Source of the DNA: Cymbomonas tetramitiformis | Lineage: Eukaryota > Chlorophyta > Pyramimonadophyceae > Pyramimonadales > Pyramimonadaceae | DNA length: 64,000 bases | Assembly: GCA_001247695.2 (NCBI GenBank) | Contig: LGRX02003698.1 | Span: 20,422 to 84,421, forward strand | Direction: 5' to 3' | Part shown: positions 1 through 46,665 of the stretch, in pieces | Layout of the letters: every line of letters begins with the position of its first letter | Position numbering within the stretch: the first letter of the stretch is position 1 | Notes under the pieces: generated by a model | The model's database searches: none | What the model saw: only the letters and a program-made list of their open reading frames with translations | What the model was told of the DNA's origin: nothing | Program-made: the position numbers and the translations under genes

Positions 1-387
1 AACTCTTTTTCGTCACGGTAGAACCCGGGAAAACAAACCGGATGCCTTTCGATAGGTTTGAAACGAAAAACATATCAGAATGTCAGATTTTTCTTTGAAA
101 ATTATTCAAGTGTTAACGAACCTTGATTTGTGCAAATGAGCCATGCTTCCAAAGTCGGACCGACCTCATATTAGCAAGTTTGCTTTACACGTCTCGAAGT
201 GCGACGCTCTCATCAGAGCGTCGCATGCCACGTGACGTAGAAGGATTCTTTCAAGTTCTACGACTTCAACGGCGTAGACTAGCCGGTATCTATTTGGGGC
301 TGTCTTGCTTGCGCGGATCCTACGAAACATAGCGCAAACGCGTGTTGTAAAGCTCCTCTCTCAGCGTTCACGAGATATGCCATGCAG

Positions 388-12300: not shown

Positions 12301-15300
12301 TGCCGTGGTCTGCTAGCACAGGAAAATGCTGTGGAGGTTTCTGCCCGGATGCTCTTTCTCGCAACGTAGGCCAATGCTCCGGTGGTCCCTGCGTTTGCCA
12401 TCGACAACTTCCCACTCCGCCAGTTTAATGCTCAAAAGCGCAGCGCTCCTGAGCCGTGCACTGTGACGCGGGCTGAGCCTCGGTTGTGCTGATTTGCGAG
12501 CAGGATCGCTACCTCCCGAGCCAAGGGCCAAGCCCCCTATGCGCGGCCTTGATGCGGCCAGGCGGGCGGAAGGCTCGCGGCCGAGTTCGCGGCCGGGCTC
12601 TGGCCGCCCGCCGCCTGCTCCTTCAGGCCCTCGGCCGGGCTCCAGTGGAAGCAACCAGGGCCTCGACTCGAGGGCAATGACTCCAAGCACGATGAATTTA
12701 GACGCCCTCCTGCTACGAAATGAAAACAAGGTGATACCGGCGTGCGCTGAGCCTGCTGTTTCCCTCTTGTGGCATCCCCTTCCCCCAGGGTCCAGGCACA
12801 CAGATTGTCTTTTCGGATTTCTGCCACTTTTTCACAGCGGCAGTAACGTGGGTTTATACTGAAGGTTTGGCCCTGTTCACTTGTTGACGGGCTTGGGCTG
12901 GGAGGAGGATGAAGAGGGGTTTGATGTCCCTTGACGCGCTCCCTCTTTCGCCATTCCGTACCCTGCCCCTCCACCCTCTCCCCCGTGTCGGTTCCACCCC
13001 GGCATTTGGCCTAGGAGAAATGCCACATTCCTGTTAAAGCCGTGTAGCTCTCCCCCTCGGTGTCGGTTCCACCCCGGCATTTGGCCTAGGAGAAATGCCA
13101 CATTCCTGTTGTGCCGTATGCCCTCCCCCCGTGTCGGTTCCACCTGGCATTTGGCCTAGGAGAAATGCCACATTCCTGTTAAGCCGTGTAGCCCCCCCCC
13201 GTCGGTTCCACCCGCCCTAGGAGAAATACATTCCTGTTAAGCCGTGTAGCCCTCCCCGTGTCGGTTCCACCCCGGCATTTGGCCTAGAGAAATGCCACAT
13301 TCCTGTTAAAGCCGTAGCCCTCCCCCCGTGTCGGTTCCACCCCGGCATTTGGCCTAGGAGAAATGCCATTCACCTTTAAAGCCGTAGCCCTCCCCCGTTA
13401 AGTTCCACTCGGCATTTGGCCTAGGAGAAATGCCACATTCTGTTAGCCCTCCCCCCGTGTCGGTTCCACCCCGGCATTTGGCCTAGGCCACATTCCTGGT
13501 AATTGGGGGCGTGCCGTAGCCCTCCACCCCCGTGTCGGTTCCACCCCGGGCATTTGGCCTAGGAGAAATGCCACATTCCTGTTAAAGCCGCGTAGCTCTC
13601 CCCCCCCGTGTCGGTTCCACCCCGGCATTTGGCCTAGGAGAAATGCCACATTCCTTTTAAGCCGCGTTGGTGCTGAGATCATCGTTTCTCGTTTGCTCGA
13701 ATCCTCATTTGCCAAAGGCAGGCACTGCAATACATTTCATTAAAATGATTTTGTAAAGTGTTTAAAATGCATTTTGTGCGTTTTACATGCTTTCTAAATT
13801 CATGTTTTTGATGAGATGTCCAGACTGTCTGTGCACGTCACCAAAAGGAAAGAGTCCTCTGGGTCGGGAGCGGTGGGAAGAGCAAAAGGAACAGAGCTGA
13901 ACAGGCGTGTCGCTTCGTGGCTACTTGTACATCCTGTTTGTTTCACGGAGCTACATGTGTCATTCGGCTCTACTGCAGCAGGAGTCACGGATTCTGAAAG
14001 TCTGAAACCACAAAAATTCTGTTGCACTCCAATTTGAACATTTCTCTTTTGCTCGAATCCTCATTTGCCATGAAACCAAAGATGAAACTGTGAGGCACAC
14101 AAAAGAAATCTGATCTCTGTCACTGTGACCATGTTAACCAAGCGAAGTAGTAGTCCATGTCTGCGTCCCTCAGAGCTGTCGGGTCGATGTAGTGTTGCAC
14201 TGCCGAAGAGAACTGTGACCAGCCTCCCAGGAAGCACACTTTCTCCATTGTAACACCCACAGCTCGAGCACACGTCGTGGCACCCTTCCGGGTGCTGTGT
14301 GCAGAAAAGTGACCTCCTTCAGGAGGTCTGCAGTCCAGCTCGCCGAGAGCTAGACCAATCCAGTCATTTGCCACGGAAGCCTTGAAGTTCTTCGGGTCCT
14401 CGGGTAGCAGCCAGTAGGCGTCAGGTTGAGTCTTCTCAGAAATGCTCCAAGCAGTGTCACGGTAGAACTCCCAGTGCTCGATCAGCTCCTTCAACAGAGC
14501 TACCCCCTTCCAGGGGATTGTAAGGCGTCGCTTCACTCGATGGTGTCGCCGTCCCTTCTCCTTCAGTAGCACCACTGAGAACTCATCGTCGCCACAATGA
14601 ACGTGCTGCCGTGACAACGAGGTCCCCGTGTCCGGTCTGCCGAAGGTCACGAAGGCCACAACCACGTAGGTAAAGGCTCGCAGTAGCTGCAGCTCCTCAG
14701 GCGATCTCGGATTTAACTTCAGCGCTGCTTCGTGCACCCGTCGTACGTGTGCCGCTGGCAGCCACGTCCGCTGGGTCTCGATGTTCTCCTCCTGCACCGC
14801 CAGCTCCGCCTGGATGGTCGCCATCCCCTTCACAGCTCGGGTCACAGAGCGCCCCTTCGCTGGTCCAGAGAAACCAAGGTCCTCGTGGTAGTTGTTGATG
14901 GCGGACAGGTACGGCTGTAATGATGCCGACTGGATGTTCCCGTCCTCCAACAGAGAGGCGATGTACAGCAACACAGTCGCCTCCGACGCTGGCAGCCACG
15001 GCCGTTGGTGCAGCTCACAAAATAAAATGAATCGCCGCGCCTTCGGTCCGTCGTTGTCCTTCGTCGTGTCCAGCAGTGCCTTTTTCTGCATCGACACCGC
15101 CAGTTCGGTGAGCCGGGAAGGTCCCAACTCACCCCTCCACCGCTCACAAAGTGAGCGCGTGAGGAAATTTTGTACAGCACCACCGCGCTTGTACTCTTCG
15201 TAGTTGCCTCCGCTGCTCCGCTCGGTGTTCTCGCCGTCCGCGTCTGTTGCCTCGTCCGTGCTGTGGATGATTTTGAAGTTCTCTTCGGACAAGTCTAGCG

Positions 15301-18300
15301 TCTCCTCGTCGCCGTCGTCGTACAGCACGTGCGCCTTCCCGTCCTCGTTGAACTCCTTCACCACACCCGGGTAGAAGCAGTCATCGTCCGTCCAGAACAC
15401 CTCGATTCTTGTACCCACGGTCACCTTGCTTGCTGTCGTACTTCAGCAGCGTAGTAACTCACGGGCGCGCCTCGATGAAGAACATCACAGCGTCCCATTT
15501 CGAGGGCCCGAGCAGCTCGGACCCTCCCAGCCTGCTCGGAGTGAACAGGTCCCTGCGCCGTGGCATGATCACCACCTCGGTGGCCAGGGCTTCCAGCTCT
15601 CTGAACCAGGACTGTCCCGGCCAGTACGGAGCCACCACCGTAGCAGCGGCCCCCTCCTCCCGCAGCTTGTGCGCCACCTCGTCCAGCAGCGCCCACGGGG
15701 GGTTCACCCAATTGTTCTCCCCCCGCCAGTCGTACGTCAGAGAGTCCACACCTTCGCACTTCGGGTCCTTCCACGCAGCGTAGTACCGAGGAAGCTGCGC
15801 GGAGATCTCGGAAGCGAACCGGTCGACTGTGTAGGGCCCCCACTGCTTGTTGGCCCACACGAACCAGTCCCGATTCAGCCGCCAGTCGTCCAAATCCTCG
15901 CAACGCGAAAGGTTGTCGGCCCACACGTTGGCCTCGCTGCGGATGTACCGAGCCTGCAACTCGATGTCGTGCAGATCGAGTAGCAGCCAGAGTCTCCTCA
16001 TTCTCCTCATCAGGTCCGGGTTCCTGGAGGTGAAGTGTGACAGCATCGCCACCACCGCCTGGTTGTCGCAGTAGAGCCGTACGACCTTGCCCTCCAGCTC
16101 CTGCAGGAACGCCTGTACGGTCTTGTACACGGCCTCCAGCTCCAGGTGTGTAATGTGCCAGCAGCGCATCTCGTCTGGCCAGAAACCTCGCGCGGGGAAC
16201 TTCAGGTTCAGCACTCCTCCCCACGCTGTCATCGAAGAGTCCGTGTGCACCTTCGCTCTCGTCGGGGATCTCCAGATCTTGCGCCCGTTCCACCTGCTCA
16301 TCACAGGCAGCCTGGACCACCATTCTAAGTCCCCCCGAGCTGAACGCGAGATTTTTACCTTCGCTCCCCAGCTGCGTTTCTCCGCCAGCACGAAGTAGAG
16401 CTCCCGTAGGTAGAGCCGCGCCGCTGGTACTGCCAAGTACACGGATTGGCAGAGTCCCGTGAAGGACGCCAGTCTCCTGGCAGGAATCCACCTCCGATTT
16501 CTCGCTGCGTCGCACAGGATCTCCTTCGCCTTGGTGTGGATTTTGTGCACCCGTCGTTCTGTCACACGGAATTGTCCCAGCTTCAGGTCCACCTCCAGCC
16601 CGAGGTGCTCCACCACCTGCGTAGGCTCCCAGTGGCCCTTCTTCTCGTTCCGCCGTAGGCCAAGTCGATGAAGCACCAGTTGAACTTTTTCTCGACGCAG
16701 AAAGCCTTCTCGCTGAGAGTCGACCAGCACCAGAAAATCGTCCATGTACGGTAGTACTCGCATTCCGCTGTGACGGTTCGCGTCCCCGCCAGCACCACCG
16801 GTCCTGCGACGGACTGACCATCGCTGTCGTACTGCGGAACCGTCCCGCAGTCTCTTGATTTCTCTGCGATCCTCCGCTGCCTGTGGAGAACGCAAAGCCT
16901 CCACCATCACGCGTACAAACTTGCAGAAAACTCTCGGAGCGTCGCTCCATCCGAACGGCATCGCTGAACATTGAAGCAGGTCCCCTTGCAGGTCGAACTG
17001 CATGAACTTCTGGAAGTCCGGGTGGATCCCCAGCGCGTGAAAACCGTCCTGGAGGTCGAAGCTGAAGCACCAGTCGCCCGGTTTCGCCAGTCTCCTTAGT
17101 TTCTTCAGCGTCTCCATCTTCACACGATTTTTTACACACCACTGGTTCAGCCATCGGAAGTCCACCACCAGTCTCCACTTGTTCGTACCCGGTTTTGGCA
17201 CTAAAAAAGCGCGAGAAACGTGAGATCTTCTCGTCGCTCTCGTCCAGGCACCGTTCTCCAGCAGCCTCTCCTTCTCCGCGTCCAGCCACACCTGCTGCTG
17301 CCGCGTAGCATCCCTCAGTGACACCCCGTGGTCGAACGGAGGCGGAGGCTTGCGCTTCCACCTCAACTTCACCCCGTGAGTAATCCATTGCATCACCTCG
17401 GAACTGGCGCCCGCCGCGCGCCATGCTCCCCTCCGCTGTCTCACCTGCTGTTGCACGGTGAGTTTCCCCCGTCCAGCGCCCGGAGAGGGCTGTTGCGCTG
17501 GACGGGGTGGCGGCACGCACATCACGCATCGGCCGCGGGCTTTCCGCCCCGGCCCTTGCCGCCGCCTTTGTCGGTAGGCTGCTTGTTACCGTCCTTCTCT
17601 TTGTTCTTACGCTCCTTCCAGCGGTCGCGGTCCCGTGGATCTTTCACAACCCGCGTTTCCGCGCTCGCTGCGTTCTTCGACGTAAGGTTCAGCATCGCCC
17701 TGCCGCGGTTCTTGTCGAAGTCGTTCAGCCACTGCTGCAACACCTCGTCCGCCACCACGCCGTCTGCTGCCTGGTAGACCCTGTTCTCCACGAACTGCAG
17801 CTTTGCGCGTAGAGCGTCTGATCCTCCACGCTGCGAAGAACCAGGCTCCTGCTCCAGCTGCCCGCGCAGTTCCAGCATCGTCCAACGGTTGCAAAGCAAC
17901 GCGTACACGCCGTGGACCGAGTTGGTAACCTCGTGGCAGTGTTTCTGCCATTCTCTCAGCGTCAATCCGGAGTCTTCGTTCACGTCCAACGCCTGGTTGC
18001 ACGCGTTCACCACGTCGTGCAAGTAAGACAGCGCTGGAGCCAGAACCATGCACTCGTACTTCATCGAAGAGTTGGACTTCTTGGAGAGCGCGTCGTACGT
18101 CTTGCTGCCGTGCAGGTCGTACAACTGCGGCATCCTCGTTGTCAGTGTCGCCGGCCGCGGTGGGAACGGGTTGACGGAGGCTGCCGGCACGTAGTCCAGC
18201 TTCTTCCTTCTCTCCAGAAGTTGCTCGGCGGTCTTGGCTGCGGATTCCGGGTCAGAAGTCCCAGGCTTCGCTGCCACCTTCGCCTCCAGCTCAACGTTGA

Positions 18301-19392
18301 TTTGAGCCTGACGTTGAAGCTCAGCACGCAGCAGTCGATGATCCTCTGCCTGCTGCCTCTGCATCTCAAGCAGCTCCCCTTGCTGCTTTTGCATCGTCAG
18401 AATTTGTTGTAACAGCACGTCCTGAGTGGACGGTGCTGCCGGGGAAGGGGAAGCCTGCCCGATGTCCGGCTTCCCCGGGAGGGGAGGGAATTCCTCTGTA
18501 GACTTGCCCTTCGAAGAACCAGCCATTTTCTCTCCCTCAGAGGAGTAACAGTGAAGTCAATCGTACTGTCGTAGCCGCTGTGAAGCCGTCGTTTGAAGTC
18601 GTAACGCCGTCTCCGCGACTTCTCTGTCAGATCTCCTGTCGTCGTTCGATCGCCGTCGTACAACCAAGTGGTCTAGTCACTACCTACTCTACTGTTTTAC
18701 CGGTGAAACAGGTGAAGAAAATTACAAAATCGGATTTGCAGTGTGCCTCACAGAGTACCGTAGGTACCCGTGAAGTTCCTGTTTGCAAGAGCAAAAGGAA
18801 CAGAGCTGAACAGGCGTGTCGCTTCGTGGCTACTTGTACATCCTGTTTGTGTCACGGAGCTACATGTGTCATTCGGCTCTACTGCAGCAGGAGTCACGGA
18901 TTCTGAAAGTCTGAAACCACAAAAATTCTGTTGCACTCCAATTTGAACAAAACGGTCCATTGCCAGCATCTCTTCACCTTATCCAACAGCAGTGGGGTCA
19001 TTACGGTCGCCTGAGGTCCATCAGAGCCACCACAGGTTCTGAATTTCGCAGCCATTGAAGCCTGAGGCTTGGTATTCTTTTTAGTAGTGAGCGCTGGAGA
19101 TCTAGAAGCTGTAAACCCCTGGAGAAGTTCAAAAGGTTTAGCTTATGCTGGAAGAAGGTGTGCACAGCTGTGACCCGTGAAGGTTCGGCACGGAGTGGCG
19201 TGAGATGCACAGTTGAAAAAGCTCGACGAGCTTGACATGAAGATGGACTCCAAAGCCAAGACAGACGAACTGGACACCCTTTTGATGGAATTTCTGGACA
19301 AAACCAAGGAACCTCCTCCGAACTTGCTAGAGACCGGAAACAGTATGGCCCCCTCGGAAGTCTTTCCGCTAAGCCCTGAACCCCTTGCCAAG
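388..19392 (+). CDS. CSPP1-like centrosome/cilium coiled-coil protein, multi-exon (partial at 5' and possibly 3')
   Basis: Exons read from GT-AG borders: 388-428, 1188-1268, 1512-1604, 1790-1858, 2043-2093, 2878-2926, 3143-3300, 3465-3656, 4035-4103, 5699-5740, 6317-6385, 6633-6833, 7094-7234, 7303-7455, 7651-7785, 7860-7967, 9696 to about 10030, 10151-10247, 11226-11311, 11415-11555, 11718-11848, 12504-12730, 19213-19392. Most adjacent exons agree in phase, e.g. the split codons at 11311/11415, 11555/11718 and 11848/12504. Recurrent charged coiled-coil modules ([10 protein letters not shown] at 1790, [13 protein letters not shown] at 6317, [10 protein letters not shown] at 7303, LREELHREQ at 10151), an EYNRFL motif and an [14 protein letters not shown] block (6633 exon) recall CSPP1, a microtubule-associated protein of spindle poles and ciliary axonemes. 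Gln/Gly/Tyr/Pro-rich exons lie between 2.9 and 4.1 kb. The last intron hosts a retrotransposon. The start exon is not seen. CSPP1 assignment is from motif memory, not a search; the exon chain itself is more certain than the name. Confidence 0.72.
2173..2664. repeat. 50-bp minisatellite, about 10 copies
   Basis: Tandem units of 50 bp (starts of CTTGCCGAGC at 2181, 2231, 2281 and onward) with single-base variants. It lies in the intron after the exon ending at 2093. Because 50 is not a multiple of 3, all three + frames stay open, giving false ORFs of 219-250 aa. Confidence 0.93.
3624..3752. repeat. 44-bp tandem repeat of an exon end with its splice donor, 3 copies
   Basis: Copies start at 3624, 3668 and 3712 (GGTCAAGACCACTA). 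Each carries the coding end of the 3465-3656 exon (DHYYPQQPQ) and a following GGTGCGC-type or decayed donor. The duplication multiplies candidate 5' splice sites. Confidence 0.85.
5140..5169. repeat. 13-bp perfect inverted repeat (hairpin)
   Basis: TATGCTTCACTT and its reverse complement are separated by ACCC; the flanking A/T also pairs. It lies in the 1.6-kb intron 4104-5698, which otherwise holds no coding signal I can see. Confidence 0.8.
5520..5548. repeat. 14-bp perfect palindromic hairpin
   Basis: CCTCGTCCAGAATC followed after one base by its exact reverse complement. Same intron as the hairpin at 5140. Confidence 0.85.
5892..6137. repeat. 61-bp minisatellite, 4 copies
   Basis: TTGGGAC begins units at 5892, 5953, 6014 and 6075. 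It lies in an intron of the CSPP1-like gene; overlapping ORFs on both strands are not credible genes. Confidence 0.92.
8846..9036. repeat. 48-bp minisatellite, 4 copies
   Basis: GCAAGCGTGAAG recurs at 8846, 8894, 8942 and 8989 with CACATATGAGTGAAG inside each unit. Intronic (7968-9695). The rest of this 1.7-kb intron shows nothing recognisable. Confidence 0.92.
10255..11100. repeat. 19-bp minisatellite (GACCATGACCAGTGCCCAC), about 40 copies
   Basis: Near-perfect 19-bp units with CC/GC and C/T variants. The array fills the intron between the exon ending at 10247 and that starting near 11226. Long minus-strand frames rich in His/Trp/Ser are read-through of the array in all phases. Confidence 0.93.
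12940..13672. repeat. About 60-75-bp minisatellite, about 11 copies
   Basis: Units share GTCGGTTCCACC, GGCATTTGGCCTAGGAG and AAATGCCACATTCCTGTT, with variable length and poly-C linkers. The array is in the large intron 12731-19212, immediately left of the retrotransposon. Confidence 0.92.
13685..13714 (-). repeat. B2 terminal repeat of the DIRS/PAT element
   Basis: 30 bp identical to 14041-14070 except one base. Marks the distal end of the element. Confidence 0.75.
13878..14040 (-). repeat. A2 split direct repeat of the DIRS/PAT element
   Basis: 163 bp, matching 18787-18949 at all but one position; abuts B1 exactly at 14040/14041. Confidence 0.9.
14041..14070 (-). repeat. B1 internal repeat of the DIRS/PAT element
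   Basis: 30-bp copy of 13685-13714, directly joined to A2; predicted image of the circle junction. Confidence 0.75.
14120..15424 (-). CDS. Tyrosine recombinase with N-terminal Tudor-like domain
   Basis: 434-aa frame. Residues about 3-50 form a Tudor/PWWP-like chromatin-reader fold ([19 protein letters not shown], then [14 protein letters not shown]). The catalytic domain has Arg in FGRPDTGTS (about 261), HSTRKGATT (about 373), GGWS and the nucleophile Tyr in QHYIDP (about 411), so the R-H-R-Y set is complete. The role is integration of the circular cDNA by strand exchange. No ATG precedes the Tudor part: the frame opens after a TGA just upstream and begins with GTG-type codons, 34 nt past the end of the RT ORF. 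Expression may therefore need frameshifting, non-AUG initiation or splicing. Fusion of a chromatin reader to the recombinase suggests target-site choice (inference). Confidence 0.88.
   Translation of the reverse strand: MTVGTRIEVFWTDDDCFYPGVVKEFNEDGKAHVLYDDGDEETLDLSEENFKIIHSTDEATDADGENTERSSGGNYEEYKRGGAVQNFLTRSLCERWRGELGPSRLTELAVSMQKKALLDTTKDNDGPKARRFILFCELHQRPWLPASEATVLLYIASLLEDGNIQSASLQPYLSAINNYHEDLGFSGPAKGRSVTRAVKGMATIQAELAVQEENIETQRTWLPAAHVRRVHEAALKLNPRSPEELQLLRAFTYVVVAFVTFGRPDTGTSLSRQHVHCGDDEFSVVLLKEKGRRHHRVKRRLTIPWKGVALLKELIEHWEFYRDTAWSISEKTQPDAYWLLPEDPKNFKASVANDWIGLALGELDCRPPEGGHFSAHSTRKGATTCARAVGVTMEKVCFLGGWSQFSSAVQHYIDPTALRDADMDYYFAWLTWSQ
15459..17522 (-). CDS. DIRS-type reverse transcriptase / RNase H / methyltransferase-like polyprotein
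   Basis: About 687 aa. RT fingers and palm: [39 protein letters not shown], and the catalytic box [12 protein letters not shown] near residue 258. RNase H follows: [11 protein letters not shown] (about 427), a Glu in [20 protein letters not shown] and [10 protein letters not shown]. The C-terminal NWVNPPW (about 604) with a downstream hydrophobic core is the N6-adenine-methyltransferase-like domain typical of DIRS1 and PAT elements. The frame is intact. Its ATG overlaps the gag stop in a TGATG junction at 17520-17524, suggesting termination-reinitiation. Confidence 0.92.
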   Translation of the reverse strand: MCVPPPRPAQQPSPGAGRGKLTVQQQVRQRRGAWRAAGASSEVMQWITHGVKLRWKRKPPPPFDHGVSLRDATRQQQVWLDAEKERLLENGAWTRATRRSHVSRAFLVPKPGTNKWRLVVDFRWLNQWCVKNRVKMETLKKLRRLAKPGDWCFSFDLQDGFHALGIHPDFQKFMQFDLQGDLLQCSAMPFGWSDAPRVFCKFVRVMVEALRSPQAAEDRREIKRLRDGSAVRQRWSVRRRTGGAGGDANRHSGMRVLPYMDDFLVLVDSQREGFLRREKVQLVLHRLGLRRNEKKGHWEPTQVVEHLGLEVDLKLGQFRVTERRVHKIHTKAKEILCDAARNRRWIPARRLASFTGLCQSVYLAVPAARLYLRELYFVLAEKRSWGAKVKISRSARGDLEWWSRLPVMSRWNGRKIWRSPTRAKVHTDSSMTAWGGVLNLKFPARGFWPDEMRCWHITHLELEAVYKTVQAFLQELEGKVVRLYCDNQAVVAMLSHFTSRNPDLMRRMRRLWLLLDLHDIELQARYIRSEANVWADNLSRCEDLDDWRLNRDWFVWANKQWGPYTVDRFASEISAQLPRYYAAWKDPKCEGVDSLTYDWRGENNWVNPPWALLDEVAHKLREEGAAATVVAPYWPGQSWFRELEALATEVVIMPRRRDLFTPSRLGGSELLGPSKWDAVMFFIEARP
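17522..18526 (-). CDS. Gag-like protein of the DIRS/PAT element
   Basis: 334 aa beginning at an ATG (MAGSSKGKS). Low-complexity Pro/Ser start; Gln-rich coiled coil at about 45-90 ([20 protein letters not shown]); globular middle; Lys/Gly-rich basic tail (KDRD...GGGKGRGGK) that could bind nucleic acid. No CCHC zinc knuckle is present. Position upstream of and overlapping the RT ORF supports a Gag role; no direct family match is claimed. Confidence 0.75.
   Translation of the reverse strand: MAGSSKGKSTEEFPPLPGKPDIGQASPSPAAPSTQDVLLQQILTMQKQQGELLEMQRQQAEDHRLLRAELQRQAQINVELEAKVAAKPGTSDPESAAKTAEQLLERRKKLDYVPAASVNPFPPRPATLTTRMPQLYDLHGSKTYDALSKKSNSSMKYECMVLAPALSYLHDVVNACNQALDVNEDSGLTLREWQKHCHEVTNSVHGVYALLCNRWTMLELRGQLEQEPGSSQRGGSDALRAKLQFVENRVYQAADGVVADEVLQQWLNDFDKNRGRAMLNLTSKNAASAETRVVKDPRDRDRWKERKNKEKDGNKQPTDKGGGKGRGGKPAADA
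18787..18949 (-). repeat. A1 split direct repeat of the DIRS/PAT element
   Basis: 163-bp copy of 13878-14040; its outer edge at 18949 abuts host intron sequence. Nearby GTGTGCCTCACAG (about 18741) is the reverse complement of CTGTGAGGCACAC (about 14089), a short inverted repeat inside both ends. Confidence 0.88.
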
Positions 19393-26344: not shown

Positions 26345-26945
26345 AGCTCGCATATGTAGGCTGAAACTCGGTTCATACGTAGGCTGAAATTCAGTTCATA
26401 CGTAAGCCAAAAATTCGGCTCATGTGTAGGCTGAAATCCACCTCATACGTAGCCTGAAATTCAGCTCATACGTAGTCCGAAATTCAGCTCGTGTGCAAGC
26501 CCAAACTCAGCTCATATGTTAGTAGGCTGAAATTCAGCTCATACGTAGGCTGAAATTCAGTTCATACGTAGACTGAAATTCACCTCATGTGTAGGCTGAA
26601 ATTCGGCGTCATATGTAGGCTGAAATTCAGCTCATATATGTCGCTTGACATTTAGCTCATATGTAGGCTGAAATTCAACTCATATATATGCAGTCTGAAA
26701 CTTGGCTCATATGTAGGCTGAAATTCAGCTCATGTGTAGGCTGAAATTCAGTTCATACGTAGGCTGAAATTCAGCTTCGTAGGCTGAAATTCTGTTAATA
26801 TATGTCGCTTGATATTTAGCTCATAATATGTAGGCTGAAATTCAGTTCATACGTAGGCTGAAATTCACCTCATGTGTAGGCTAAAATCGGCGTCGTATGT
26901 AGCTTGAAATTCAGCTCATATATGTCGGTTGACATTCAGCTCATA
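26345..26945. repeat. About 24-bp minisatellite (GTAGGCTGAAATTCAGCTCATAC), about 25 copies
   Basis: Degenerate units with CATACG/CATATG/CATGTG junction variants. No unique spacers separate the units, so it is not a CRISPR array. Confidence 0.92.
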
Positions 26946-27049
26946 TATGGAACGTATCGTTCGCCCAAAACGCTGCAGAAGGCACGAAAGTGAGGGCTAC
27001 GACTGAGCGCGAAGTGTTTGAGGTCCAATATGACGAAAAGCACATACTC

Positions 27050-27247: not shown

Positions 27248-27257
27248 CGGCGTGGTA

Positions 27258-27360
27258 GGTAGGCTATTTAATTTAGATTATTTCTTTATGATTTTAGATT
27301 AACCCATTTTCATGTTGATTTTAGATTAAATTTTTTTGATGTCATCCGGGTATTACCGGT
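27258..27360 (+). repeat. Left TIR of the MULE-like element
   Basis: About 100 bp complementary to 30901-31012: TTTAGATTATTTCTTT, GATTTTAGATTAAC, TTGATGTCATCCGG and TACCGGT blocks match with a few substitutions and a 10-bp gap. Confidence 0.85.
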
Positions 27361-27428
27361 GCATGCATCCATGACATCGAAATATTACACAAAAGAGTTG
27401 TCGCGTAGCCAAACGAGAGGAAAGTAAC

Positions 27429-28491
27429 ATGGCTGAGCCCGACGGCTGTGAGTTCACAAGCCCGGGTAAAAGTGTGGAGGATATATATCATTCAGATGAA
27501 GAGGAAGAAGAGGACTTCCTCGTTACACCAATGGGAAAGTCGAAACGTACCCGTGTCCCCTTAGTGTGGAGTACGGTCCTCAATGGTGTATCGTATGTAG
27601 AGTGCACAGAGAAGATGGAAACCTTGAGCCTCGAGGGTGTGACCAAGTCTGGCAAGGATTATAGGTCGAAAAAAAACGGTTCCGTGACTCAAAACTTCAG
27701 GTGTGCTTTACAGCATACACACGGTTGTCAAGTTTACTATAAAATTGTCAAGGGAACGACCTTATGCCCTACTATTACATGCAACTTGTACACCCGTGGG
27801 ACACACGACCATACTAATTTCACAGGAAAGGGTATGTCGAAAGATTTAAAGGACAAGTGTAAGGAGGCGATCAAGGAAAAGCTTCCGCCTAAAGCCATTT
27901 TTAAGAAGCTTAGTACCGCAGTCACCACAGCCATGGAAGCCGATGACGACGTTGATTACAAGGTCATAAAGAACTTTGTGTACAACAATCGCAAACAAAT
28001 CTTGGGGCTTAAAACCATAAAGACTTGCGGTCAGTTCATGGAGGTTTGCCAGACCTCCAACTTGTTGGCCATCCCCGTGACCGATCGCAAAACGGCGGGG
28101 ACGCTTTGCATGTTTGAAGGACAAGTACTCGAACCGAGCGGCTTCGAAACCGTGGAACATTACGTCGAGAATTCCGCGAACACCCTGCCTCATATTCCTT
28201 ATATATACAGGCGTTCCTTAGATATACGACGGGCAACACCCCATACCTACGACTCCAGTTATTACACACGCTATTTGGCGGGAGGCGCTACGCGGGGGTG
28301 AGCAAGCAATTAAAGAAGGTCAACTGGCTTTAGTTTTTTCCGCGTTAGCTTCAATCCGACCTACAGACAGCGGGCTCGAAGTATGCTGTGATAGGCATAA
28401 TACAATTGTAGCTTACGACGCATGGGTAGACGAAATGTTTTATTCAATACAGTCGCCAACACTCTCCGATAGATATATGCCAACCTACTGA
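27429..28491 (+). CDS. Zinc-finger (GCM/WRKY/FLYWCH-like) element protein, frame broken near 28.2 kb
   Basis: Begins ATGGCTGAGCCC just inside the left TIR. Acidic N-terminus (SDEEEEEDF, about 33-41), then Cys/His positions NFRCALQHTHGCQVYYK and CNLYTRGTHDHT, the C-C-H-x-H pattern of WRKY-GCM1/FLYWCH fingers that often precede MULE catalytic domains, then a helical GMSKDLKDKCKEAIKEKL. The main frame stops at 28299-28301. The next frame reads IYDGQHPIPTTP...EALRGGEQAIKEG to a TGA at 28489. The two join if about 19 nt near 28.21-28.23 kb (around TACAGGCGTTCCTTAG) is extra. This looks like a small insertion that disabled the gene, or an assembly error. A DDE triad was not found. Confidence 0.65.
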
Positions 28492-28510
28492 ACCCATAGG
28501 GCAAAACAAT

Positions 28511-28708
28511 GTGAACGCGGAGGTTGCGAGATGCGACGAGATTGAACCGTATGAAACAACGGAGCGCGTTGTGGACGACAATGCGAACGACAATGCAAAC
28601 GACGACAACGCGAGCAAGTTGTTTCCGAAACGAAAACGGAGTGCGTTGTCAACGAGGTGTGCTCCTCTGAAAAATTTACCATTTAAAATAACGATACCAA
28701 GGGTATGA
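28511..28708 (+). CDS. Small charged frame in the MULE-like element (uncertain)
   Basis: About 65 codons, Asn/Asp-rich (DDNANDNANDDNASKLF) then basic (PKRKRSAL, a possible nuclear localisation signal). It could be a linker exon of the following methyltransferase-like gene rather than a separate gene; a GTATGA donor-like sequence follows its end. Confidence 0.35.
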   Translation: MNAEVARCDEIEPYETTERVVDDNANDNANDDNASKLFPKRKRSALSTRCAPLKNLPFKITIPRV

Positions 28709-28709
28709 T

Positions 28710-29402
28710 TGTGATAAAGGCACTAGTTTTTATCCCACAATCGCACAACAATACACGCCTCTATTAGCAGTTATTGGCAATTTGTTTCACGGAAAAGAAA
28801 TTGGCGATTTTTGCTGCGGTAAGGGACCTCGCTACGTTTACAACAACCTAGTTCGGTTCAAACCGAAGACGATCTTTCTGAGCGATAAGCATCCTGCGAA
28901 AGGCATAAGACGCCTAGACTTAGAGAAAATCAAGTGGGAAGAATTCAACCCGCAAGTAGACATCATAATATCGTCCTTGCCATATGCAAGAGGGAAGTGC
29001 GAACCTTTGTTAGCTGCGTGTCTTCAATCCAACGCCACGATCGTGTGTTTGAAGCTATTGCATTCGTTCGAACGTCCTGTGGTGGGGGATAGTAGAGCTA
29101 GTGCGTTCCAAAGGCTTGGCTTAAAGATTTTGCTACCGCCTGCAAAGTATCCGGGGTTCGGCCGTAGTTTAGGAGAAGTTGAAGCCTGGTATATTTTTTT
29201 CAACTTAGCGACAACAAAAGATTTACTAAAGAAAAGTGTCAGTGAGTTTCACAACTTGTTGTACGAAGACAGAGGATACCCGGAAAGTGCTGGGAGCGTA
29301 CCTTTTATTTATTCTGGCGTAGAGCACAACGTTGCATCTTTCAAGGATCGAGGACTTATTTTGTGGGATTCGCGGAAACAGGCGGCCGGTGCTAATAATT
29401 GA
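28710..29402 (+). CDS. SAM-dependent methyltransferase-like protein (adenine-MTase-type motifs)
   Basis: Open from about 28.71 kb; no ATG near the start, so an upstream exon is likely. Motif I is GDFCCGKGP (28803-28829), following YTPLLAVIGNLFHGKE. A motif II-like acidic region is TIFLSDKHPAKG; motif IV is DIIISSLPYA with SLPY at 28974-28985, in place of the NPPY/SPPY of N6-adenine and N4-cytosine methyltransferases. After it come FQRLGLKILLPPAKYPGFG and EAWYIFFNLA, like the C-terminal strands of the Rossmann fold. It ends KQAAGANN-stop. Substrate unknown; DNA or RNA base methylation is inferred from the motif type only. Compact and intact. Confidence 0.55.
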   Translation, partial: CDKGTSFYPTIAQQYTPLLAVIGNLFHGKEIGDFCCGKGPRYVYNNLVRFKPKTIFLSDKHPAKGIRRLDLEKIKWEEFNPQVDIIISSLPYARGKCEPLLAACLQSNATIVCLKLLHSFERPVVGDSRASAFQRLGLKILLPPAKYPGFGRSLGEVEAWYIFFNLATTKDLLKKSVSEFHNLLYEDRGYPESAGSVPFIYSGVEHNVASFKDRGLILWDSRKQAAGANN

Positions 29403-29590
29403 TAACCAAAGGTTGAAGGTACTACTCACGGAATTTGAAGCAACTTTGCATGCACAAACGTGCAAGATAATAGAGCGTGGCTGCGCAAACGAGGCAAAAG
29501 GCAAGAAATGAGGGAAGGAGGGTTGGAATGTTGGGTGGTGGTTTAACATGGGGAGAACAGTGCAGCAAGAGGGGTTTTGTCCTAAGCTAG

Positions 29591-30088
29591 ATGGAACATG
29601 CATGTGCTTTCGGGACGCCCCACCCTTGGCACAAGAAAAAAGGTGTTTACATGGACGATCCGCTAACAAGTGCAAGCAAGCCGTATTGGAAGAAAGAACT
29701 TTACATCCTTGCAGGTCAAATCTTAGAAATAATAGACGCGGATTACAAGAGAGACGGCGATTGGTGCTTGTATGTGTCGTGCATGCTAGCCGGTAAGTGC
29801 GAGGTGAAGCGACACGAGGACAGAAAAGATGTGTCACATCAATACATCATCTTTCTTGGAAACTACAAGAACGCGGTTTTGGAGATGGAGTCGCCTAGAG
29901 AGGATAGCAAGGACACCCTTCTCCAATTCTCTGAAAGCCATAAGGTTTTAAAGTGCGATGCGCGGTGCAAACATAGAGTAGCATCTGAAGGTTTTGAGGG
30001 AGTGCGCTATTGCGTTACTTTATACAAAATGTATGACAGGCGTCTAACCAAACCAGCCCCGGTGTATTGGCCACCACATTATATTTAA
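29591..30088 (+). CDS. 2-oxoglutarate/Fe(II) dioxygenase-like protein (TET/JBP or AlkB-like)
   Basis: 165-aa frame (possible internal start at 29650). The end of a double-stranded beta-helix is readable: H-x-D in KRHEDRKD (about 74), strand HQYIIFLGNY, then LQFSESHKVLKCDARCKHRV with the distal His (about 126) and GVRYCVTLY with the 2OG-binding Arg (about 138). The HxD...H...R order and spacing suit small nucleic-acid dioxygenases of the TET/JBP and AlkB types. TET/JBP genes are known to travel with transposons in fungi and green algae. Which base or substrate it oxidises cannot be told. The frame converges with the Cys-rich minus-strand gene and overlaps it by 4 bp. Confidence 0.5.
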   Translation: MEHACAFGTPHPWHKKKGVYMDDPLTSASKPYWKKELYILAGQILEIIDADYKRDGDWCLYVSCMLAGKCEVKRHEDRKDVSHQYIIFLGNYKNAVLEMESPREDSKDTLLQFSESHKVLKCDARCKHRVASEGFEGVRYCVTLYKMYDRRLTKPAPVYWPPHYI

Positions 30089-30909
30089 TGTACAACAGTG
30101 GCAGGTGAGTACGCCTTTGCGAGATCACTAGAGTCAACCATAACGTGTTTGCATAGACTCACCCCCGTAATAACGTCTGAAGCACACCAATCCTGCCTTA
30201 AAACATACCCCCTATTGTGCACAGTTAGTAGTTCTGAAGCACAACTTGCACATAGTTTGCCAATAGTGTTTCCACATCGCCTAATTGTAAGCATAGCGCC
30301 CGCTGAGCAATGGTGGACGCTACGGTGCTCCCTAGTAGCTAATAGTGATAACCAATACAAGAATCGAGCCATGTATGACATGTTTTTTGCCCGGTTGTAT
30401 AACACCGATAAGAAAGGTTGCATAATATCGTCGAGTTGCCACCCTGCAACATGGTTAGTGTAGTGAAACAAGGGAAACGACCCAGAGAACAAGTGTCGCT
30501 GGCACGGTGAATATCCCCAGTTCCCACGTGAAGGTATAACCCCTCCCCAAGGCATACCCTCCGTGTATTCGAGATACACGTAGCGGTTATGAAAGTCCCA
30601 TATAGGGTTACCGTCACTATCGTCACTCTCCCATAGGTTCACAGTGTCTGTATACTTTAGCCGGAAGCCAGTTTCGACATACTCGTTGAATACAGTGCCT
30701 TTGAAAGCGGCGGGTTGATAGTGGGGGGCCTTATTTTCAAGCAGAACACGCCGTGAGTGTCTATTACAACGGCGCCCACCATTATCACACGCGAGACAAA
30801 CCTTCTTAAAGCTTTTTGGAGGCTTCCTCATGATGGCAAGCGGGAAATAGAGCGTTTGACCTGTGTGCACATTATTTGAACACGAGTCATGAAAAGGACC
30901 ACCGGTCAT
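30085..30909 (-). CDS. Cys-rich protein of unknown function
   Basis: 274 aa from an ATG inside the right TIR (MTGGPFHDSC). Cys pairs VCLACDNGG, RRCNRHSRR and KLCASCASE near both ends suggest zinc binding. Aromatic middle (WDFHNRYVYLEY, GGVIPSRGNWGY). No family recognised. Intact frame; the only minus-strand gene of the element. Confidence 0.55.
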   Translation of the reverse strand: MTGGPFHDSCSNNVHTGQTLYFPLAIMRKPPKSFKKVCLACDNGGRRCNRHSRRVLLENKAPHYQPAAFKGTVFNEYVETGFRLKYTDTVNLWESDDSDGNPIWDFHNRYVYLEYTEGMPWGGVIPSRGNWGYSPCQRHLFSGSFPLFHYTNHVAGWQLDDIMQPFLSVLYNRAKNMSYMARFLYWLSLLATREHRSVHHCSAGAMLTIRRCGNTIGKLCASCASELLTVHNRGYVLRQDWCASDVITGVSLCKHVMVDSSDLAKAYSPATVVH

Positions 30910-31012
30910 AGCCGGATGACATCAAGAAAACTTAATCTACATGCCACTAAAATCAACAAGAAAATGAGTTAATCTAAAATCACAAAGAAATAATCTAGAT
31001 TAAATATTTTCC
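30901..31012 (-). repeat. Right TIR of the MULE-like element
   Basis: Inverted partner of 27258-27360; the outer end abuts the target duplication at 31013-31022. Confidence 0.85.
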
Positions 31013-31725
31013 CGGCGTGGTATCGCTTGAGATGTTTAGATAAACCACCAGTTGAGCCCTCAAAGACCTTGAAGGACTTGGCCTTGCGTTCCCCACATAA
31101 CTTGCACTGCCACAACTGGCACTTGCTCGACTTGTATGTTCTTATTCTTTCCACGCAATAATGGGATGTGGGTCCCTTCACCTACATGGTCGAAATACAG
31201 GTATGTAAATCCTTTTGTGGTCCTAGGGGCAGGCACACAAGGGCCCTCAGATACTACGACTGCTGCGTCTGCGGTAGTGGCACGAATGTATCGAATTTCA
31301 GCGTCGCGGTTGTCCTTGAAGGTGTCGTGTCGAAAACGATTCCACTGGTCCAACCTAATCCAATAGCCTTCATGGTTGGGAGTTTCTGCTACATCCTCCT
31401 CAACCTGCACATGAGAGTTTTTTTTTATTTTAATACCAACGTCGCCTCTGCTCAAGGAACAAGCAAGAATCGCAAGATGTGAATTGAAAAGGTCTATGGG
31501 ACGAATATTCATACCTGAAACCGGATAGCTTCGGTTTTCGCGGAATTGCCAAATTGTCGACATTTTTGGTACTCAGCAGCCGTGGATGCGAATAATTTGG
31601 CCTTATCGACGGCATCCATGGCATTGAACCAATGCCCTGGAATGTTGATCCGCACATTAAGATCAACTTGTTCTTGACCAGGATACTTTTTCACAATCCC
31701 ACATTGTAATGAGGCTTGTTTGGTC
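31013..31725 (-). pseudogene. BED zinc-finger gene, 5' part, interrupted by the MULE-like insertion
   Basis: Minus-strand exons: one ending at 31515 (DLNVRINIPGHWFNAMDAV...TEAIRFQ, GTATGA donor); one from 31404 (VEEDVAETPNHEGYW...FTYLYFDH) to a GTAGGT donor; then, after a 55-nt intron, SSKCQLWQCKLCGE...STGGLSKHLKRYHA, a BED finger (C-x2-C...H-x4-H). Translation enters the insertion and ends in TIR sequence (FNLDYFFVILD). The remainder lies at 27050-27247. BED fingers occur in hAT and related transposases and in domesticated derivatives; no DDE core is visible here. Confidence 0.6.
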
Positions 31726-43069: not shown

Positions 43070-43197
43070 GTTTCATCGACTGTTTAACTTTTTGCAGTTT
43101 ACTGTCCGTTTTTGCAGTTTGTGTCCGTTTTTGCAGTTCTGTAACACCGTAAGCTTTTCAGTGCGCACATACTTTCAGTAGTATTCGTATATTGATT

Positions 43198-44049
43198 ATG
43201 GAGTGGTTCACCGACCCAATTTTGTGTCAAAGACGAATTGATGATTTGCAAGCGCAGCCAGCGTACGCGACCGCTTTTGCCGCTTTCCAAGATGGGGAGG
43301 ACCTCTCGCAACCGCAAATGAAGTTGATTCGACAAATGGAGAGAGCGACTGCCCGACTTGCTGAGCTTAAAGGACTGTCACAAGTAGCCTCAGGAGACCG
43401 TAAGCGTCCGTGGGAGGCAGCAGTAGATCTCACTCAGCTTCCAGGGTCCGATCGCCTTGAGTTGACTCGCAACGATGATGGCAAGGACAAGGGACTCCGC
43501 AAACAGTTTTTGGAGACCCAGCACCACTTCGTGGCACACTCAGCGTCACAGTTGGCGCTTAATGACGCCAAGAAGGAATTGGAAGGTGTGGAGCTGCCTG
43601 AGACTGTCACTCTTGCTTTAGAATTCTTGTCTGAGACTGCGGAAAAAGGTGTGGCACGCGCCAAGGCACGCGCTAAAATTTTGGCCTTGGTTTCGGACAA
43701 AGGCCCTGAAGTGGGCTGGAAAATCTGCGAGAAACTTGAGCGTAAATCGTACGCTGACGATGAAGAGGACGAAAAGTTAATGCGCAAAGCAGAGAAAGAA
43801 GTTAAGGCTGAAAAGATTCACGCTGCCCAAGCCGCGGCTGCCAAGGGGCGAAACAAGGGCCTAGGCAGGGGTGCCTTTTCAGCTTCTCGTCCTACTGCTC
43901 CTGGAGCACCTCCGCCACCGCCACCTGTTCAGGCAGGGCGTGGCAGTCACCTCCAATGCTGGAATTGTAACGAGTTTGGACACCACCAAAACCAATGCTC
44001 GCAGCCGCGCCCGGCTGGCAGAGGCCGTGGCAGAGGATCGGACCGTTGA
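43198..44049 (+). CDS. Gag-like protein with CCHC zinc knuckle
   Basis: 283 aa from ATG at 43198 (MEWFTDPILCQRRIDDLQ). Helical, charged middle with KARAKILALVSDKGPEVGW; Lys/Ala-rich stretch; Pro run (APPPPPPVQ); then CWNCNEFGHHQNQC, a canonical C-x2-C-x4-H-x4-C nucleic-acid-binding knuckle, and an RGRGRG tail. Frame intact. It would bind element RNA. Confidence 0.88.
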   Translation: MEWFTDPILCQRRIDDLQAQPAYATAFAAFQDGEDLSQPQMKLIRQMERATARLAELKGLSQVASGDRKRPWEAAVDLTQLPGSDRLELTRNDDGKDKGLRKQFLETQHHFVAHSASQLALNDAKKELEGVELPETVTLALEFLSETAEKGVARAKARAKILALVSDKGPEVGWKICEKLERKSYADDEEDEKLMRKAEKEVKAEKIHAAQAAAAKGRNKGLGRGAFSASRPTAPGAPPPPPPVQAGRGSHLQCWNCNEFGHHQNQCSQPRPAGRGRGRGSDR

Positions 44050-44143
44050 ATTGTTAAAAATGTAGAGCCACGAAGGCCAGTACTGTCAGCTTAAGCGGAA
44101 TGCTTAACAGTTGAGGTGGAATGCCCAACTTAAAATGTAAATT

Positions 44144-45463
44144 GTGGGGACGAACCCTAAATTTGTAATGAATCTTGGCCCGCGGGCTGTTGTTCCTTGT
44201 GTTCCAGGTTCTGAATTCTCTGTGGAAGAGCTTGGCGAGGCCATACCTTTGTGTGAACAGGGCGTTCCGGTGCCCCGTGTTGCGGGGAGACTTAGGGAAC
44301 GAGCACCCTTTTGGCGGACCTTTGTCCGCTCTTCGTATGTGATGTCTTGGATTGAGAGAGGGTTTAACTTGAAGTTTAAAGATGGCAGGGCTCCGCCCCG
44401 AGTACACTTGGCTAACCACGTGTCAGCTGTTAGGCACGCCACCTTCGTTACTGACGCTTGTGCAGGAGTGTGTCCTTATGGGCGCCCTGAGAGAGGTGCC
44501 CAGCAAGCCGCGGGTTGTACTGCCTTTAATGGTAGACGACTCTCGGGACAAGCTAAGGCTAATTTTCAACGGTAAGTGGCTCAATGCCTTTCTGATCTTT
44601 CCGAAGTTCAAGTATGAGCACCTGCAACCTTTTGTAGACCTGCTTAGGAGGGGTGACGGGCTGTTTTACTTTGACTATAAGTCAGGGTATTACCACGTAG
44701 ACCTCCACGAGATGTCTCGTACATATGTTGCTGTTGAGTGGCAGGGCAGGTTCTTTGAGTTCTGTGTGCTGCCGTTTGGTCTAGCCCCAGCTTGCTGGGT
44801 GTTTACGAAGATCAACAAGGAGCTCGTAGGGAGTTTGAGGCCCGGGCAGATGCCCTGTCCAAGATCAAGGACCATGATGACTGGATGGTCAACCCGGCAA
44901 TCTTTCAGTGGGCTGACCCATGGATTGCCGGGGGGTGGAGGCACACCCGGGACAGGTTTGCAACTGACAAGAATTGTCTTGTTTTTGACAGTGCAGGTGC
45001 CCCCTCCTTCAACAGTGCATGGCACTGTCCAGGTACGTCGGGGGTTGACACTTTCGGTCAGACGGACTGGCGGGAGCACGTCAACTGGTGCAACCCGCCT
45101 TTTCGGATGATCGGGAGGCTCCTGCTGTTTCTGCAGGCTGAGAGGGCTGCAGCCTCCATTGTGGCCCCGGTCTGGACTTTCCAGCCGTGGTGGGTCTTGC
45201 TGTGTCCCGACGGGGTTCACTTGGCAGACTGTGTGGTGCAGTGGACGGAGCTCCAGCCCTCTGCGGACACCTTCCTCCCTGGCCTCGGAAGGGCCAATGA
45301 AGGGGGTGTGGGCTTGCCTGACTTTCGGGTCCTCCTCTTGCGGGTCTCCTTCGATGAGAGGGAGCCTGCAGGCCCTGGTCCCCGCTGTACCTTGGGGGGT
45401 TGCATGGCTTGTGACTGGGGTAGGGGTATGAGATGGGGGCTGCCTTTCATGCAGGCATCATAG
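44144..45463 (+). pseudogene. RT / RNase H / methyltransferase-like ORF, frameshifted and internally deleted
   Basis: The first frame reads RERAPFWRTFVRSSYVMSWI...RHATFVTDA. A 1-nt shift near 44.47-44.49 kb moves to ALREVPSKPRVVLPLMV, DKLRLIFNGKWLNAFL, YFDYKSGYYHVDLHEM and LPFGLAPACWVFTKI. At about 44825 the sequence jumps to EFEARADALSK, the end of RNase H (ADxLSR-type), so the RT YxDD box, thumb and most of RNase H are deleted. Then VNWCNPPFRMIG, the methyltransferase-like NPPF motif. Non-functional. Confidence 0.88.
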
Positions 45464-46665
45464 GCACTGGGGAGCAGTGGGCTGGCCTGCAGTTCTCCGT
45501 GACGGACCCGCTGGAGATGCAGCTGCGGGCAGACATGCTGTTGGCGGTGTCTGGCACTCGTGAGGCTAGCACCATGCGGGGCTACTCTCGGGTGTTCGTA
45601 CGGTACCAGGCTTTCTGTCAGGACCGTGACCCACCTAGGGTGCCTGTTCCTGCTGACCCGGTCACGGTGGCTATGTACTTACAATACATAGCCAATGCGG
45701 CCAGGACCTTCTCTGTGGTGAAGACCGCTTCGGCTATGGTTTTCACTGCTCATGATTTGGCTCTGGTCCCGGCAAACCGGAACCCCACCTCTCATCGGCT
45801 GGTGGCCGCGGTGCGGGAGGCAACTCACAGGAGGCTGGGGGACAGGCGGCTCAACAGGAAGGAGCCGCTGGAGTTTGCATTTGTACAGAGTGGTGCTCGT
45901 TGCTGGTTGATGCTGGGAGGTGTCACTCGGCAGATGTTTGCTACACTGGGTTTGGACATGTGGACAGGCTTCTGGCGGTATGACTGTGCGGAGAAGGTGA
46001 GACTGCGGGATATGAAGTTCTGTGAGACCCACATGACCACCTTCCTCGAGAAGCGGAAGACGGACAAGTACAGGTATGGTCAGCTGGTGGAGGTTGCCCG
46101 GGCGGCGGAGGGGCAGCCTTTGTGCCCAGTGGAGGTCAGTCAGAGGTGGGTTGACACTCAGATTGCACGGGGAGTGCAGCCCGACGAGCCCCTGTTTCAG
46201 CAGATTGATGGCAGGCGGTTTCAGCGGGACCCGTCGGCTGACTGCCTGACGGGGAAGAGGCTGGACTACCCTCAGCCGAGGAGGTACCTGTTCAGGATGC
46301 TGGGTGAGGCTTCTGGCTTGGACCCCGATGCTCTGAGGCAGCTGTATGGGACCCAGTCCCTGCGGTCTGGTGGGGCTACGGCGGTGGCTGCGGCTGACCA
46401 GGTTACTGATTTCGAGTTCAATCAGTACGGTGGCTGGAGCTCGTCGGCGGCTGCGGCCACCTACAAAGCTACCAACCTCAACCGCAGGCTGGCGGTGTCC
46501 AGAAGCATGCCCCATGCTCAGCAGAGTAGGCGGCCTTTCTTGTCTGATTGCTTGTTGTTGTCATGCATTACATGTGCACTGCTTTGTGGTGATCTTTGTG
46601 TGCTTGCACCGGCCGGGTTCCATTCACATATGTGTCATATGTGTCATGCAAGCTGGGCTATGTAG
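45433..46665 (+). CDS. Tyrosine recombinase, possible catalytic His-to-Gln change
   Basis: 410 aa. SAM-like N-terminal core-binding region (TMRGYSRVFVRYQAFCQDR), first Arg in TGFWRYD (about 181), beta region FLEKRKTDKYRYG, box II as GTQSLRSGGATA (about 305-315), GGWSSSAAAATY with nucleophile Tyr (about 342). The HxxR His reads CAG (Gln) at about 46350, which could cripple cleavage. The frame is otherwise complete. The last about 20 codons run into B1. Confidence 0.88.
   Translation: MGAAFHAGIIGTGEQWAGLQFSVTDPLEMQLRADMLLAVSGTREASTMRGYSRVFVRYQAFCQDRDPPRVPVPADPVTVAMYLQYIANAARTFSVVKTASAMVFTAHDLALVPANRNPTSHRLVAAVREATHRRLGDRRLNRKEPLEFAFVQSGARCWLMLGGVTRQMFATLGLDMWTGFWRYDCAEKVRLRDMKFCETHMTTFLEKRKTDKYRYGQLVEVARAAEGQPLCPVEVSQRWVDTQIARGVQPDEPLFQQIDGRRFQRDPSADCLTGKRLDYPQPRRYLFRMLGEASGLDPDALRQLYGTQSLRSGGATAVAAADQVTDFEFNQYGGWSSSAAAATYKATNLNRRLAVSRSMPHAQQSRRPFLSDCLLLSCITCALLCGDLCVLAPAGFHSHMCHMCHASWAM

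Follow-up and report, generated by a model that had tools for sequence, protein, structure and literature searches.

The locus at positions 27258-31013 of the 64,000-nucleotide stretch of the Cymbomonas tetramitiformis genome analysed here (the window; assembly GCA_001247695.2, contig LGRX02003698.1, positions 20,422 to 84,421) raises the question of what a Mutator-like element (MULE) of a green alga might do with genes resembling those for a methyltransferase (MTase) and a 2-oxoglutarate (2OG) dioxygenase. Both had been placed within a single element by an initial annotation of this DNA. Judged by its alignment to a full-length relative found elsewhere in the genome, L039, the copy in the window is dead and non-autonomous, a deletion derivative of a Mutator-like family of approximately 8.8 kb. 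As far as its motifs tell, this one family combines a transposase bearing a C-terminal PHD finger and FLYWCH/SWIM-like motifs with MTase-like and dioxygenase-like genes. The best overall explanation we can offer, that MTase-like and dioxygenase-like proteins act in trans as helpers and rewrite marks over the Mutator-like copies, stands in our view at about even chances.

The window copy retains three segments of L039 (70-1018, 2064-2134 and 6170-8862), the first of which, window 27258-28200, is 94.8% identical to its counterpart. Two deletions separate these segments. One (L039 1019-2063) takes all three DDE residues, and the other (L039 2135-6169) takes the C-terminus of the transposase with its PHD finger, together with the middle frames and the beginning of the MTase gene. 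The transposase core, the PHD finger and the other frames did not appear among the frames listed earlier, since they are deleted from this copy. What remains of the element is arranged as follows.

27249-27257, no strand: left target-site duplication GGCGTGGTA, 9 bp (flanking repeat).
27258-27361, plus strand: left terminal inverted repeat, beginning GGTAGGCTATTTAATTTAG (inverted repeats, genomic matches).
27429-28200, plus strand: N-terminal stump of the transposase with a GCM/FLYWCH-like Cys/His finger (frame, L039 alignment).
28201-28220, plus strand: bases without a match, at the junction of the first deletion (L039 alignment).
28221-28291, plus strand: 71-bp remnant of the transposase gene, L039 2064-2134 (L039 alignment).
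28294-29402, plus strand: MTase-like gene lacking its start and bearing two 4-nt insertions (L039 alignment).
29390-30088, plus strand: 2OG-dioxygenase-like gene 2OG-A, broken, start approximate (copy comparison).
30085-30909, minus strand: Cys-rich gene ORF4, whose part conserved in a sister family begins MRKPPKSF (frame, sister comparison).
30900-31013, minus strand: right terminal inverted repeat, ending TTTTCCC (inverted repeats).
31014-31022, no strand: right target-site duplication GGCGTGGTA, 9 bp (flanking repeat).

The motifs first recognised here are indeed present: the open part of the MTase frame (28692-29402) contains TSFYPT, DFCCGKG, SDKHP and SSLPY, and that of 2OG-A (29591-30088) contains HxD...H...R. 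The dioxygenase frame is interrupted by one 4-nt insertion and one stop codon, and because the start of the MTase gene is deleted and both frames are broken, this copy is unable to encode the enzymes whole. Likewise, the frame with the GCM/FLYWCH-like finger exists, but only as the stump of a transposase. We therefore rejected the reading of the finger, MTase and dioxygenase frames as separate intact genes of this copy, given the deletions and the frame-breaking insertions. The Cys-rich antisense frame, also noticed at the outset, is open throughout.

The ends of the element, GGTAGGC at the left (27258) and CCC at the right (31013), agree with the left bound given before and move the right one outward by one base, from 31012. 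An inverted-repeat search of the window returned two pairs of arms, 27265-27324/30947-31006 (93% complementary) and 27322-27361/30900-30939 (90% complementary), in keeping with the terminal inverted repeats (TIRs) of about 100 bp described at first. A target duplication is present as well; its proposed length of 10 bp was rejected in favour of 9 bp, the tenth base being part of the CCC end of the element. Exact 9-bp duplications precede GGTAGGC in six other copies (L010, L012, L019, L024, L025 and L028), and that of L021 has one mismatch. The right end varies among copies between CC and CCC, so that, with the register shifted, the duplications of L024 and L039 admit a 10-bp reading as well. 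The search for further copies bounded by such ends, which had been proposed as a check, covered the 852-Mb C. tetramitiformis assembly (25,745 contigs); here and below, copy counts are scored places out of a larger number of candidates, most of which are unscored. It gave 40 scored left-end matches, the window's own included, out of 1519 candidates, with 92-100% identity, and for this reason the ends cannot be a product of chance.

A full-length copy with a DDE transposase had likewise been named as something to look for, and L039, with 8.8 kb between its ends, is such a copy. It holds the following open frames.

247-2862, plus strand: transposase, 872 amino acids (aa).
Plus strand: 173-aa frame.
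2982-3398, minus strand: 139-aa frame.
4147-5397, minus strand: 417-aa frame.
5948-7267, plus strand: MTase-like protein, 440 aa.
7191-7949, plus strand: 2OG-A frame, in +1 overlap with the MTase frame.
Minus strand: Cys-rich gene, frameshifted in L039.

By eye, the L039 transposase carries a GCM/FLYWCH-like finger (C92/C100...H126/H128). Aligned motif positions give D375, D441 and E573 as its catalytic residues, with C483xxH486, and further on come a SWIM-like CxC...CxC block at position 729 and, at 824, a PHD finger. A CxxH between the second D and the E is a signature of MULE transposases; the DDE and CxxH motifs are judged by eye. Blocks DDTYKTNW, LDHS.AF, CWSHC and STQNSPE..N align among six sequences, with P0012 lacking part of the core. 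The PHD finger matches PF00628 in the transposase of L021 (E=5.3e-12) and recurs in two relatives at 49% identity; one relative, P0008, is annotated as 'SWIM-type domain-containing'. The 417-aa minus frame has, by eye, a Cys-rich N-terminus and the series WHLD...VHQG...PRIVF, which makes it a possible second 2OG dioxygenase of the same element.

Interspersed repeats make up 68.3% of the C. tetramitiformis genome (PMC10675990), and the main text of that paper, which also reports Oxford Nanopore reads of this alga, contains none of the words methyl-, Mutator or MULE. Judging from its copies, the present family is recently multiplied, numerous and young in this genome. Stop codons are absent from 51 of the 52 transposases scored (3344 candidates); for the MTase, 96 places were scored (723 candidates), 40 of them of full length and 37 of these 40 stop-free. 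Of the 52 transposases, 22 are followed on their own strand, at a distance of up to 6 kb, by a scored MTase match; the other 30 are not evidence of its absence, because most candidates are unscored. Eleven copies have a full-length, stop-free MTase downstream of a stop-free transposase.

Two further observations concern the copies. Of the 37 insertions relative to L039 that are no longer than 12 nt, 22 are of 3-5 nt and only five of a single base, and seven of the 22 resemble tandem duplications; such 3-5-nt insertions may be excision footprints of small elements or reflect a repair habit. Relatives P0002, P0003, P0005, P0006, P0009 and P0010, with 49-94% identity, lie on contigs of 1.3-7.1 kb (P0006 from NCBI, the other five from ENA), which suggests that related elements exist outside the Cymbomonas assembly.

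Conserved motifs are the ground on which we call the two proteins MTase-like and dioxygenase-like. In four MTase sequences, of which the three others are 52-57% identical to that of L039, the elements TSFYPT, D243FCCG247, SD269, D280, D294 and SSLPY302 are invariant; they would supply the motif I, the acidic motif II and the motif IV of the form (N/S)xPY of amino-MTases. Amino-methyltransferases have NPPY or NLPY at the motif IV position. It is there that the SLPY tetrapeptide presumably sits, and the TSFYPT block precedes motif I. For 2OG-A, four sequences (the others being 60, 60 and 94% identical to that of L039) share H139, D141, H192 and R203, that is, the iron triad HxD...H and a downstream Arg. 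A match to the TET/JBP profile of Pfam-A is absent for the dioxygenase of this family. PHROGs profiles gave a single match (E=0.32), viral contigs no confirmed relative of either protein, and phages none for the MTase and one chance match for 2OG-A (E=6). As relatives of the MTase and of 2OG-A are missing there, we see no sign of viral origin in the viral and phage collections searched.

The age of this gene set can be approached through a sister family (of the P0004 type; 105 places scored out of 1265 candidates), whose proteins are 52% (MTase), 61% (2OG-A) and 53% (ORF4) identical to those of the main family. Silent sites between the two families are saturated (pS 0.74-0.80, pN 0.26-0.33), and the sister copies L046, L047 and L048 each have all three genes in the arrangement and orientation of the main family. 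Because the order is kept and silent sites are saturated, the MTase, dioxygenase and Cys-rich genes look long-selected and not like passenger fragments. The three sister copies also look mobile, since they end alike at ...TTATGCTACC and their flanks differ; neither a left end nor a transposase was seen for them. It could be argued that the genes are passive cargo of no use to the element, fragments of host genes taken up in the manner of Pack-MULEs; uptake of such fragments is known for MULEs (PMC6446971), and the genes are broken in the window copy and in others. However, a second family with the same genes, order, overlap and saturated silent sites, the 37 of 96 scored MTase places that are of full length and stop-free, and the strong purifying selection on 2OG-A all speak against such cargo, and we disfavour it as very improbable.

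The overlap just mentioned has the same form in both families: the final 41-80 nt of the MTase frame are overlapped by the beginning of 2OG-A, in the +1 frame, and 2OG-A has no ATG ahead of a conserved N-terminal block, which is strongly constrained in the main family. Within the overlap there is a 19-nt GT...AG segment whose removal would restore the frame, a length unusually short for splicing. The two products could be joined or coupled by a +1 frameshift, by splicing or by re-initiation. A fused MTase-2OG frame of 671 aa was considered for the sister family and rejected, as the DNA shows two overlapping frames. A more far-reaching scenario would make the two enzymes one bifunctional polypeptide, produced by +1 frameshifting or splicing and working in tandem like phage hypermodification enzymes: a methyl group would be added to bases of the element and oxidised at once, giving a private base mark that host silencing could not read and that the PHD-bearing transposase would exploit. 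We hold this to be distinctly unlikely. As a separate observation, positions 3134-3709 of L047 (minus strand), lying mostly past the end of the sister element, contain by eye a frame that resembles the end of a retroelement polyprotein, with a PHD finger after it; on account of it, capture of PHD fingers may be frequent among the mobile elements of the Cymbomonas genome.

Selection within the main family was followed as the ratio of nonsynonymous to synonymous change (dN/dS). In pairs of nine copies it was 0.18 for 2OG-A and 0.05 for the stretch of 2OG-A ahead of its first ATG; a different copy set gave 0.08 for 2OG-A. The DDE and PHD parts of the transposase stood at 0.35 and 0.31, against 1.19 and 1.18 in two out-of-frame controls, and the 173-aa and 139-aa frames at 0.30 and 0.39, both from very few changes.

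The anatomy of the element is consistent with an autonomous MULE that has helper enzymes acting in trans, accompanied by derivatives that are not autonomous. In the mechanism that we propose, the transposase would use its GCM/FLYWCH-like finger to bind the TIRs and would cut with a 9-bp stagger, and the PHD finger would dock it on histone tails. The MTase-like protein, to judge from its motifs, would methylate an exocyclic amino group, most likely N6 of adenine in DNA, and the putative Fe(II)/2OG-type protein would oxidise a methyl mark. Together they would keep element copies transcribed or transposable by altering the chromatin or base marks on them, and, since the enzymes would act in trans, deleted copies such as that in the window would benefit too. 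That the enzymes counter host silencing is inferred by analogy with TET-bearing fungal transposons (PMC12730594) and with VANC.

Modification of proteins or RNA (histones, the transposase, tRNA or rRNA) in place of DNA bases, by which chromatin or translation would be tuned, is a possible though rather doubtful alternative. SLPY is similar to the NLPY of rRNA-adenine dimethylases, and 2OG enzymes of many classes hydroxylate proteins; the PHD finger of the transposase is of the histone-reading type. Moreover, some Phytophthora MuDR families bear SET histone methyltransferases (PMC12730594). Yet no particular protein or RNA emerges from the element data as a substrate, and the transposon-borne dioxygenases described in the same paper are of the TET/JBP type, thought to act on bases.

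Several observations weigh against the explanation by trans-acting helpers that rewrite marks, or against the assignments on which it is built. No Pfam MULE or DDE match was obtained for the transposase or six relatives, and for the DDE core no profile above the cut-off and no PDB sequence match; as no MULE profile matched, the element is filed as Mutator-like, as it was from the beginning, on its ends, duplication and transposase motifs only. The MTase and the dioxygenase reach no family profile at the cut-off in Pfam and NCBIfam, with matches only below it, and PDB searches by sequence and by profile gave no match (best E=0.12). AlphaFold models, a check proposed at the outset, of a dioxygenase relative (P0005, 4 sequences; pLDDT 42.6, pTM 0.49) and of an MTase relative (P0002, 3 sequences; pLDDT 41.7, pTM 0.39) are of such low confidence that they neither support nor refute the folds; the former has a strand order compatible with a beta-helix core, and the latter alternating helices and strands with a late strand pair, in an order compatible with a Rossmann MTase, but agreement at this confidence is weak. 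The claim of both genes in one element holds at the level of the family, by motifs and selection, but it finds no profile or PDB match and does not hold for the broken window copy. Motif I of the MTase is GxG in the main family and GxA in relatives, the last Gly being replaced by Ala. The two halves of the MTase gave dN/dS of 0.54 and 0.45 in pairs of nine copies, four copies gave 0.74, and the highest single pair, L042 with L039 in the second half, gave 1.28. The whole transposase stood at 0.68; the 417-aa antisense frame (0.83, six copies) shows little constraint, and the C-terminal 120 codons of ORF4 (1.15) no clear constraint within the family. As to the sister family, none of the 54 places scored with P0008 as transposase query (of 839 candidates) lies, by eye, beside a sister MTase locus. 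P0008 itself was rejected as the sister transposase: only two places are close to it (100 and 91%), and the rest, at 55-56%, belong to the main family and its kin. Finally, stop codons interrupt some of the 96 scored MTase places, C14214, C16878 and C4622 among them: nine places have one TGA and four TAG codons, one of them with an extra TAA, and in eight others the match ends at residue 391, with one TAA. These stop-codon counts, which say nothing of positions, suggest that subfamilies were amplified with a dead MTase; the multiplication of broken-MTase subfamilies implies that the MTase is unneeded in cis, and maybe unneeded for amplification.

Part of this evidence would also suit an MTase-like protein that is catalytically dead, a DNA- or SAM-binding scaffold, with the dioxygenase as the sole active enzyme. 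Constraint on the MTase (dN/dS 0.45-0.74) is weaker than on 2OG-A (0.08-0.18), and the GxA motif I of relatives and the amplified subfamilies with a broken MTase point the same way. On the other hand, four MTases at 52-57% identity all keep SSLPY, DFCCG and the acidic residues of motifs II/III unchanged, and we find the scaffold unlikely.

Comparison with known systems sets the helper-enzyme explanation in context. Long TIRs, target duplications of 9 bp, inside the 8-11-bp range of the superfamily, a DDE transposase with CxxH and extra open reading frames are shared with MULE/MuDR elements, and FLYWCH-like and SWIM-like fingers with MULEs of oomycetes and flatworms (PMC6446971). In contrast to the latter, the Cymbomonas element has a C-terminal PHD finger together with the FLYWCH/SWIM-like motifs, as well as the MTase-like and 2OG-like genes. 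The main text of that paper contains neither 'methyltransferase' nor 'dioxygenase'; it notes SET for a Phytophthora MULE group, and both of its occurrences of 'PHD finger' concern Rehavkus. Rehavkus, an outgroup to MULEs, resembles the Cymbomonas element in its transposase PHD finger and 9-bp duplication, but it has one open reading frame and a minisatellite before the 3' TIR and occurs in arthropods and annelids (PMC6446971), whereas the present element has several genes and resides in a green alga. DNA transposons with TET/JBP dioxygenases are known from fungi (Dileera, Kyakuja, Zisupton, hAT, IS3EU, EnSpm, Harbinger, Helitron, Plavaka and ESTA); these enzymes, mostly undisrupted, are thought to lift silencing marks, and the lineages named in the abstract do not include MuDR (PMC12730594). 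Unlike them, the Cymbomonas dioxygenase matches no profile and travels with an MTase-like gene. VANDAL elements are MULEs with a silencing countermeasure of their own, for which the Cymbomonas element is a candidate by analogy; however, VANC is a sequence-specific anti-silencing binding protein (PMC10398659) and not a pair of enzymes. A transposon-borne methyltransferase is shared with certain Tc1/mariner elements, in which it is paired with an endonuclease; the word 'dioxygenase' is absent from the text of the paper describing them. The literature searched, with subscription papers and Repbase outside its range, yielded neither an element that carries an MTase together with a 2OG dioxygenase nor a dioxygenase-bearing element of Mutator type.

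Two other features of the window deserve mention. Immediately left of the element, at 26503-26971, lies a short array of satellite-like character, made of GCTGAAATTCAGCTCATAT-type units that are often spaced by 23 nt. Two clusters of frames resembling DIRS-type elements, with gag-like, reverse transcriptase/RNase H and tyrosine recombinase-like parts by eye, lie at 14120-18526 (minus strand) and 43192-46665 (plus strand).

In the literature searched, transposon dioxygenases have so far come from fungi, and transposon methyltransferases from a few mariner elements or from SET-carrying families. If the proposed explanation is true, a young, high-copy algal MULE with both kinds of enzyme and a PHD-bearing transposase would make the rewriting by a transposon of its own epigenetic marks directly testable in one alga for which a genome sequence and long reads exist, and it would mean that such gene sets are kept by selection over long times.

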